The position numbers and the translations under genes are program-made. DNA of 64,000 bases from Allobosea sp. 117 (lineage in GTDB: Bacteria > Pseudomonadota > Alphaproteobacteria > Rhizobiales > Xanthobacteraceae). Shown here in pieces: positions 19,226-35,102 of the stretch. Location: positions 1-64,000 of the forward strand of contig NZ_JNLC01000018.1 of the NCBI RefSeq assembly GCF_000702305.1, in the 5' to 3' direction. Under the pieces are notes generated by a model. It saw only the letters and a program-made list of their open reading frames with translations. It did no database searches and had not been told where the DNA came from. Numbering within the stretch: the stretch's first letter is position 1; every line of letters begins with the position of its first letter.

Positions 19226-19300
19226 GCTCCTCTGGCCGGCACGGATGTCGGGGTAGATCCGACATCACGCGAACGCCGGCTTGGCTCGCGTCAGAGGGGC
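19226..19300. ncRNA. Candidate structured RNA: three-way junction with complementary loops
   Basis: The plus strand can form an outer 9-bp helix (19226-19234 with 19292-19300), a hairpin with an 8-bp perfect stem (19244-19251 with 19259-19266), and directly next to it a second hairpin (19267-19272 with 19286-19291). The self-complementary GCCGGC occurs in the junction (19235-19240) and again in the second hairpin loop (19275-19280), which would permit a tertiary contact. It lies 102 bases before terC and 22 bases before the transglycosylase, so either gene could own it. No known family signature was recognised. Confidence 0.4.
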
Positions 19301-19322
19301 CCGGATCGGGTAGCGGCAATTT

Positions 19323-33848: not shown

Positions 33849-34079
33849 CTAGAACCGAGCCCGGATCTTGCCGACGACCTCATAGATGACGGGCACGCCA
33901 TCGACCGTCTTCGGCAGGTCGAGTTCCTTGGCCGGAGCGCTGCCGAGATTGACCTTCACCGCCGTGCGCCCGTCCACAAGGCTGATGCCGATGCCGGCGA
34001 GCTCGAGTCCCGGCGGCAGAATGGCCCGCAGATGCACCTTGGCATCGCGTGCGCGCTGATATCCGGCCTGATCGCTCAT
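33849..34079 (-). CDS. Small protein partner of the trypsin-like protease
   Basis: 76 residues, no signal peptide. The sequence pattern GIGISLVDGRTAVKVNL then LPKTVDGVPVIYEVVGKI resembles the N-terminal domain found in front of bacterial trypsin-like proteases of the upstream gene's type; that protease has a comparable segment (VGIIQGKKAGDVRLALRI, EIDIRYVGRI). It begins 9 bases after the protease stop, so both are in one operon. It may be a propeptide-like inhibitor or chaperone; this is inference. Confidence 0.65.
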   Translation of the reverse strand: MSDQAGYQRARDAKVHLRAILPPGLELAGIGISLVDGRTAVKVNLGSAPAKELDLPKTVDGVPVIYEVVGKIRARF

Positions 34080-34088
34080 GCCCTCAAT

Positions 34089-35102
34089 CTATGCGAGCGC
34101 AAGGTCGATCGCCAGTGTGTCCAGCACGCGGCCAATCGGGTTGGCATAGGTCAGGCCGCGCCCGTTGGTGCCCCCGCGCTCGCTTCCGGCGAACAGGAGG
34201 CAGGCCGCGCGGCGCTTGTCGTCCAGTATGAGCGAGCCGGAATCACCGCCGCTGCTGAACGGGCCGTTGCCAAGCCCCTCAATCTCGATCTGATCGTCGA
34301 AAATGACTGTCCCCACGTCATATTCGATCGCCAGCCCGTCGACCTCGGTGGCCGTCACCCGGCCATGCGTCAGGCCGGTGGTGCGGCCGATCTTGACCAC
34401 CTCCTGTCCCGGCAAAAGCGGCTCGTTCCGCACGCCGGCCAGCGTGCCTATGTCGCGATAGCTGCCGACGAGGGCATCGACGCCTTCCGCCAGGGCCGCG
34501 ATCGCGGCATCGACATGGTTGGGCGTGCCGCTCTTGAGCGGCACCCAGTCGGCCAGCCGGCCCGCGACGTCGCGGGGCCGCCGGCCGCCGTCGTAGCGGC
34601 CCGGCTGCAGGATCGCGTCGCCGCGCCGCGCATTGTTCTCGTTGGCGAGCACGTGATTGTTGCTCAGCATCACCAGCTCGCCGTCGCGCCGACGGTTGGC
34701 GAAAGCGCCCAGCGTTCCGGCGGTAACGCGGAAATGCCCCACCGAGCTGCCGGCCTCCAGCGGCCGCAGCTTGGTGCGGTACCACGGCGTCGGCGCCTGC
34801 CCTCGGGCGATGCGCCCGACATAGCGGATGTCGATCTCGTTCTTGGCGAGCTTGCTGACATCCGTGATGAAGCTTTTGGTTTGCTCGAACGAATGTCGCT
34901 GAATGCGCAGGGCAAGCCGCACATCGCCAGCTTTCTTGCCCTGAATGATGCCCACCGCGACGGTCGGCTCGACGCCGGTGAGCTTGTTCACCGAGAACGT
35001 CGTAACCGAGAAGCCGCCCTCGGCGCGTATCGTCTCGTAGGCTGACGGAACGATGCGCGCGAGGATTTCCTGCTTGAGCTCCCGTGCCGATTTCAGCTGC
35101 AT
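34089..35102 (-). CDS. Cytoplasmic trypsin-like serine protease (S1-like)
   Basis: 337 residues, with no signal peptide. The N-terminal domain of about 115 residues is followed by a chymotrypsin-like core: H150 in MLSNNHVLANENN, D198 in PNHVDAAIAAL and S288 in FSSGGDSGSLILDD. Further family motifs are IGRTTGLTHGRV and LLFAGSERGG. All triad residues are present. The start at 35102 (MQLKSARELK) fits better than the in-frame ATG ten codons upstream, though ribosome sites are weak for both. It is transcribed with the small gene behind it. Substrate and role unknown. Confidence 0.8.
   Translation of the reverse strand: MQLKSARELKQEILARIVPSAYETIRAEGGFSVTTFSVNKLTGVEPTVAVGIIQGKKAGDVRLALRIQRHSFEQTKSFITDVSKLAKNEIDIRYVGRIARGQAPTPWYRTKLRPLEAGSSVGHFRVTAGTLGAFANRRRDGELVMLSNNHVLANENNARRGDAILQPGRYDGGRRPRDVAGRLADWVPLKSGTPNHVDAAIAALAEGVDALVGSYRDIGTLAGVRNEPLLPGQEVVKIGRTTGLTHGRVTATEVDGLAIEYDVGTVIFDDQIEIEGLGNGPFSSGGDSGSLILDDKRRAACLLFAGSERGGTNGRGLTYANPIGRVLDTLAIDLALA

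Follow-up and report, generated by a model that had tools for sequence, protein, structure and literature searches.

The window analysed here, a stretch of 64,000 nucleotides from Allobosea sp. 117 (contig NZ_JNLC01000018.1), carries two closely spaced genes on its minus strand. The first (34089..35102) encodes a NAL1-like (Nal1_C) serine protease of 337 aa, identified by Pfam and from the sequence, whose start at 35102 is the start common to its closest relatives. Its N-terminal region (residues 1-97; 34812..35102, minus strand) was assigned as a NAL1_N-type domain from an AlphaFold2 one-chain model and a chain of profile comparisons, and its chymotrypsin-fold catalytic domain (residues 113-337; 34092..34766, minus strand) was delimited by structural comparison of the model. 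The codons of the catalytic residues His150 (34653..34655), Asp198 (34509..34511) and Ser288 (34239..34241), all on the minus strand, were located with an alignment of 81 members. The stop codon of the protease gene and the spacer that follows it occupy 34080..34091 (minus strand): after the TAG (34089-34091) come nine bases that include the ribosome-binding-like stretch GAGGG (34081-34085), and then the ATG (34077-34079) of the second gene (33849..34079, minus strand), a stand-alone partner of 76 aa recognised from sequence, the ORF of which ends at 33849. The coordinates, lengths, strand and nine-base spacing are those given by the first-pass annotation. A scan for promoters and terminators found none. 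A gene for a ParA-family partition ATPase (NF041546; 33183-33824, plus strand) is convergent with the pair. Further away in the window, at 19250-19312 on the minus strand, we detected an Rfam terC RNA match (55.5 bits, above the gathering score).

The Pfam model Nal1_C (PF25819) matches the window protease with 34.5 bits, which passes the curated cut-off of 26.1, and also matches 27 of 32 related proteases (E ≤ 0.01). Chains of NAL1 (NARROW LEAF 1; PF25819 and PF25608) in the PDB match its sequence with an E value of 3e-6, and a PDB search with an alignment of 32 members again ranked NAL1 best (1.7e-11), followed by a Glu-specific protease, the streptogrisins and alpha-lytic protease. The protein also matches a protease family of the PHROG collection. 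Its modelled catalytic domain aligns equally well with alpha-lytic protease (Z 23.2, rmsd 2.2, 189 aligned) and with NAL1 (Z 23.0, rmsd 2.7, 222 aligned), and the HtrA-type proteases score well below both (Z about 16). The His-Asp-Ser triad, which the first-pass annotation had described as intact, is intact in 81 of 81 aligned members. We read the protein as a NAL1-type protease and not as a trypsin in the narrow sense. The residue six positions before the catalytic serine is F in 62, M in 14, L in three, K in one and I in one of the 81 members; since this position, a crude offset, is mostly occupied by F or M, cleavage after Arg or Lys is not predicted, and trypsin-like P1 specificity was rejected. 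A crude hydropathy test found no signal-like hydrophobic stretch at the N-terminus of the window protease, in agreement with its earlier description as a protein without signal peptide, and no signal-like N-terminus was found in any of 80 related proteases (0/80).

The NAL1-like protease family is already known, from Pfam and from plant NAL1. One plant paper calls NAL1 plant-specific and states that the family sets leaf width in plants and flowering time in maize (PMC12915138). In the model of the N-terminal region (residues 1-97) of the window protease, a helix (3-28) is followed by two strands (48-54 and 61-67), two helices (70-74 and 76-85) and a last strand (90-94), and residues 31-44 are predicted with a pLDDT below 50. 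The Pfam model of the leading NAL1 domain (NAL1_N, PF25608) does not match the window protease and matches six of the 32 related proteases (E ≤ 0.01).

The 76-aa protein is predicted with a pLDDT of 89 as a compact core made of a helix (4-20) and three strands (27-35, 38-45 and 62-68), and has a six-residue tail after a conserved glycine (G70). The length at the N-terminus varies among the small proteins; at the other end, 38 of the 62 that have the conserved Gly terminate exactly five residues past it. In the proteases, as we read their sequences, the linker that leads to the catalytic domain begins at about the position that matches this Gly and tail. NAL1_N does not match the window's small protein either, and at E ≤ 0.01 it matches four of 64 small proteins (L045, L051, L066 and L070), two of which pass the curated cut-off; the main stand-alone lineage, including the protein of the window, thus goes unrecognised by this model.

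Structural comparison of the small model gave weak matches to the alpha-lytic protease pro-region (2pro, Z 6.2, rmsd 2.6, 69 aligned; 3pro and 4pro, Z 5.7), with unrelated folds within one Z unit, and to NAL1 (8pmm, Z 5.7, rmsd 3.1, 68 aligned; 8pme residues 92-174, Z 4.7, rmsd 2.5, 67 aligned). The first six rows of this search comprise three alpha-lytic pro-region structures, one NAL1 and two ribosomal proteins, and further ribosomal and KH-type domains tie with the pro-region. A Foldseek search of the PDB returned nothing at an E value of 0.001 or better, with NAL1 chains among the top 50 rows, and a PDB sequence search with the small-protein profile returned chance matches only (E 0.15 and above). 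We rejected the alpha-lytic pro-domain as a sequence relative: a profile of five PF02983 domains has no similarity to the small or the N-terminal domains, and PF02983 is absent from the Pfam matches of the 64 small proteins.

The first-pass annotation had proposed that the small protein resembles the N-terminal region of the protease next to it. For the window pair taken alone the resemblance is weak: blastp finds no similarity between the two proteins, and of the shared "G-x-G" strand that had been cited, the small protein has a literal instance (GIG) and the protease has AVGI. Compared with the N-terminal regions of the subfamily to which the window protease belongs, a profile of all 64 small proteins reached a probability of 16% (P 0.0016), with a score of 21.5, whereas 50 column shuffles reached at most 16.7; the same comparison gave 25% (P 0.00078) after removal of the four in-protease-like small proteins, and 1.7% (P 0.028) for the 18 closest small proteins, no better than the catalytic-domain control. 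The likeness comes out clearly through relatives. The small family matches the N-terminal regions of two other NAL1-like groups at 98.1% and 95.8% (catalytic-domain controls, 0.2% and 0.6%), and the N-terminal region of the window protease matches the second of these groups at 99.1%, a further group at 98.0% and the first group at 52%. For the Mesorhizobium group, no match was obtained between the N-terminal region and the small profile (0.2%). A profile of the 60 stand-alone proteins that remain without the four in-protease-like ones matches the N-terminal regions of 27 of 80 proteases at E < 0.01 (best 4.3e-8), and including those four raises this to 33 of 80 (best 2.7e-13). Because the main stand-alone lineage matches these 27 N-terminal regions by itself, the profile comparisons argue strongly that stand-alone and in-protease NAL1_N-type domains are homologous, for the protease of the window by way of its relatives, and the homology stands without the four-member side lineage. 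The predicted order of elements agrees as well (helix, strand, strand, optional helix, strand), with extra helices before the last strand in the N-terminal region. When the pair was modelled as one chain, the pTM was 0.64 and the small domain was not confidently placed.

The small protein had also been called a copy of the N-terminal-type domain of the protease. We built a tree of 66 stand-alone and 28 in-protease domains (small-protein HMM, E < 0.001; 89 columns, arbitrary root; the in-protease domain of the window protease left out). All 28 in-protease domains and four stand-alone ones fall in a single branch (99/99), and the other 62 of the 66 stand-alone domains lie outside it; these four are again L045, L051, L066 and L070. 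The label, stand-alone or in-protease, changes five times on the tree, compared with 24.5 times in shuffles. Since the tree sets 62 of the 66 stand-alone domains apart, most stand-alone proteins appear to belong to an old, separate lineage, and a few seem to have split off later from in-protease domains. The word copy is thus slightly wrong, as most of these proteins are not recent duplicates of the N-domain of their partner.

The small family was first recognised by reading the neighbourhoods of order-level protease matches by eye. For the survey of cellular loci, named genomes gave at least 580 protease relatives, of which we took the best 80, all of them with the scan motif, and ran a small-protein HMM on all 4654 ORFs (≥ 40 aa) of these loci. 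The HMM went through five rounds of rebuilding, each with matches from these loci; its seed version, made from seven order-level sequences (L006 included), found 73 ORFs at E < 0.01, and the last round found 100. These 100 comprise 67 stand-alone ORFs, spread over 66 loci, and 33 proteases matched in their own N-terminal region, with no antisense ORFs among them. An 84-aa ORF adjacent to the protease of L006 was tried as a partner; the profile does not recognise it, and it was left out of the counts.

A stand-alone ORF is thus present in 66 of the 80 loci (37 of the first 40 and 29 of the last 40), and in 63 of the 66 it lies less than 300 bases from the protease on the same strand (52 downstream and 11 upstream), with the other three farther away. 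At 14 of the 80 loci we detected none. Six of these (L049, L053, L064, L069, L075 and L085) have less than 1500 bases beside the protease, L069 on both sides, so that some absences may be due to contig ends. A clear stand-alone copy is encoded elsewhere in two of the 14 partnerless genomes (L142 and L151); of two further matches, the one in L157 reaches the end of its contig and probably represents a truncated protease, and G942:C57 is weak. On two Rhizobium plasmids the small gene adjoins the protease gene and is divergent from it, and the link therefore outlives the operon. The distances among the partners track those among the proteases (Mantel r 0.80, 66 pairs, 0 of 2000 permutations), a statistic that ignores host kinship.

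In a class-level sample of 385 genomes, including the genome of the window, at least 11 match the small profile (E ≤ 0.001), at least 11 match the protease profile (E ≤ 1e-10) and at least nine match both (Fisher P 6e-15, with genomes taken as independent); counts from these genome searches are lower bounds. All nine pairs are adjacent, within about 360 bases, in line with the co-occurrence check that the first-pass annotation had proposed. Within the order, the protease was found in at least nine of 199 genomes, with none found in the one other genome of the genus that was searched, and by profile a small partner accompanies the protease at five of the nine other loci of the order. A search of the 199 genomes with the single 76-aa sequence returned only the protein itself among the matches listed.

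If the two genes were neighbours by chance, or through shared operon ancestry only, they would have no functional link. The class sample does contain unpaired matches, two of 11 small-profile matches without a protease (G845, at a contig end, and G674, weak) and two of 11 protease matches without a small protein (G732 and G913). However, the adjacency was found under 20 phylum labels, archaea included (many of these loci are MAG contigs and their labels may be wrong), in both gene orders and also in divergent arrangement. The survey had already made chance unlikely, and applying the same method to protease loci on viral contigs found a small ORF in at most four of 80 (L164, L195, L221 and L237), where the proteases are also more distant. 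Of these four, the ORFs in L195 and L237 continue into protease sequence and are probably in-protease domains that have been broken; the ORF in L164 is 1098 bases away. We regard neighbourhood without function as very improbable. The first-pass annotation had raised the prospect that homologues of the protease always stand alone, which nearly holds for viral contigs and does not hold for the cellular loci. The reading as a stand-alone N-terminal-type domain that probably acts on the protease is well supported by the homology, the conserved adjacency and the co-occurrence.

Clustering of neighbouring ORFs (≥ 80 aa, blastp 1e-8) gave no convincing third conserved gene among the 14 largest clusters listed. 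The largest cluster (20 loci) has as its example an ORF antisense to the protease and was taken for an artefact; the next contains nine loci, all from Geodermatophilaceae, and one of seven loci has a small-family protein as its example. A cluster of five loci across phyla is ABC transporter-like by our reading and belongs to a common family. Several loci have layouts of their own. In two cyanobacterial loci (L034 and L038) the partner is upstream, and the protease is followed by a gene whose product of about 120 aa is hydrophobic in its C-terminal half and does not resemble the partner. On the two Rhizobium plasmids (L132:1271-4852 and L139:1384-4933) the protease comes after radical SAM and HEXXH "peptide modification" proteins, with the divergent partner between, which hints at a peptide-maturation cluster. 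In L109 (1426-1710) a stand-alone domain is divergent from a gene that we read as a subtilisin-like protease with a signal-like start; the locus lies at a contig end, beyond which a NAL1-like neighbour may be encoded.

We propose that the 76-aa protein is a pro-domain-like regulator in trans, an inhibitor and/or a folding helper, of the adjacent protease. Because the distances of the two families correlate, the tail is nearly constant in length and there are structural matches to a pro-region, weak as they are, we consider this proposal evenly balanced between right and wrong. The small protein would dock onto its cognate catalytic domain, where it would assist folding of the protease and/or keep it inactive in the cytoplasm. 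The short C-terminal tail would lie towards the active-site cleft, much as a propeptide's end does after cleavage, and a signal or dilution could then remove the partner and release the protease. What we infer in this scheme is that the two proteins bind, that the partner inhibits or chaperones the protease, what its tail does and what triggers the release.

Several known systems resemble the pair in part. As in NAL1, a putative NAL1_N-type domain, assigned by the profile chain, precedes a Nal1_C catalytic domain; unlike in NAL1, where the match to the small model lies within the same chain ahead of the catalytic domain (8pme 92-174), a second, stand-alone copy is encoded next door. Alpha-lytic protease and the streptogrisin-type proteases, which are secreted, belong to the same catalytic fold group and have a loosely similar small domain ahead (PF02983), but this pro-region acts in cis, is cleaved off and shares no sequence similarity with the small protein. 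The pro-region of alpha-lytic protease is a folding catalyst according to PMC2829044. The clearest precedent comes from the subtilases: PMC6993865 describes SUB1-ProM of Plasmodium as a stand-alone propeptide-like protein that potently inhibits SUB1 and whose gene occupies a syntenic locus next to those of subtilases, and PMC10580911 reports for POIA1 and YIB2 that the last six residues affect potency. Like the small protein of the window, these inhibitors are free proteins that resemble the leading domain of a protease; they differ in protease clan and in domain, and inhibition was shown for them and is a proposal for the window pair. The Hachiman/AVAST nuclease-protease pairs are likewise conserved two-gene units with a trypsin-like protease, as presented in PMC12799240, but there the partner is an MBL-fold nuclease proenzyme and here it is a domain of 76 aa. 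We found no description of a stand-alone partner of a NAL1-like protease in the open-licence papers searched.

Like domains often pair, and the protease keeps its own N-terminal region, so that each system has two such domains. The small protein may accordingly be an assembly or activator subunit that pairs with the N-domain of the protease and sets its oligomer or presents substrates, with the active site unblocked. Where a NAL1 sequence is represented by only one PDB entry, that entry contains three or six chains of it, which hints at an oligomer. A role in assembly does not, however, require the near-constant free C-terminus, and we view it as possible, though on the doubtful side.

The pro-domain-like regulator has a difficulty of its own if the complex is purely cytoplasmic. 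Read from the first start, four stand-alone proteins (L063, L083, L086 and L091) have signal-like N-termini, and the stand-alone protein of L107 also looks signal-like whereas its protease does not; such partners of signal-less proteases are a misfit and count against a purely cytoplasmic complex. In L063 (2406-3341) two stand-alone copies, one with a lipoprotein-like signal, lie upstream of the protease, which has no such signal. The few signal-like starts, together with the small size, the joint encoding and the variable N-terminal length, would suit a dedicated substrate or sensor, cleavage of which, in the whole protein or in its tail, relays a signal. The compact and confidently predicted core speaks against this, as does the homology to the in-protease domain, which is not expected of a mere substrate, and we judge a substrate or sensor to be improbable.

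The pair had also been suggested as a stress or defence module, for which we found no support at the locus. The ten flanking genes (29-39.5 kb of the window) include by Pfam thrS, yidD, a NifU-like protein, GTP cyclohydrolase I, flavin/FMN reductases, a ParA-type ATPase and an L,D-transpeptidase, two of the ten have no Pfam match, and there are no VMAP or MoxR-vWA types among them. Neither window protein has a PADLOC match, and a single stray one (0.0037) was detected among the 64 small proteins. At E ≤ 0.01, the Pfam scan of these 64 proteins, which presumably covers both Trypco models, yielded no match to either. Trypco1 and Trypco2 are likewise small proteins beside trypsin-like peptidases, but belong to VMAP/MoxR-vWA conflict systems according to PMC7159879, and no such neighbours were seen among the ten flanking genes.

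More generally, a toxin-antitoxin-like or defence module, with a toxic protease and the small protein as its antidote, would suit the patchy distribution within the order and the genus and the relatives on plasmids. The wider NAL1-like family has some contact with conflict biology: plasmids of Streptomyces and Tsukamurella encode a NAL1-like protease and its N-domain within one chain annotated as DNA/RNA non-specific endonuclease (L135:4926-6806 and L136:4923-6821), a layout like that of the predicted conflict "System 3" of PMC7159879. Set against this, the neighbours are of housekeeping type, the scan of ten flanking genes revealed no family of mobile elements, and PADLOC has no model for either protein. 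A defence role at the window locus is unsupported, and the antidote reading in general seems to us quite unlikely.

Relatives of the domain also occur in viruses. Gene product 024 of Mycobacterium phage Phabba (L134:3923-4216) is a lone stand-alone domain, and the 164 kb of Phabba contain no match to the NAL1-like protease profile. Among the 66 cellular partners it aligns best with that of Mycobacterium colombiense (score 91; next 86), and a fold search of viral proteins is led by Phabba (E 2.5e-5) and Mycobacterium phage Myrna (8.5e-5). Three genes upstream of gp024, Phabba encodes a protein (gp021) that is vWA-like by our sequence reading. In the Aeropyrum coil-shaped virus (L133:2836-3816), a NAL1-like protease with an N-domain is annotated only as a putative serine protease. 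The lone phage copy suggests a possible counter-measure. Taken further, the pro-domain-like regulator would be an ancient, separate inhibitor that checks NAL1-like proteases in bacteria and archaea, of which phages (Phabba, perhaps Myrna) captured a lone copy, without the protease, to switch off that of the host. We consider this extended scenario unlikely; if true, the pair would be a host module that has so far gone unrecognised and that an infecting phage would gain from blocking, and NAL1_N would be a general trans-acting switch, plant NAL1 included.

The pair would define a widespread and so far unnamed two-gene protease module in prokaryotes, and would give a hint as to what the leading domain does in proteins of the NAL1 family. 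A genetically encoded regulator of 76 aa would make the control of NAL1-type proteases directly testable.
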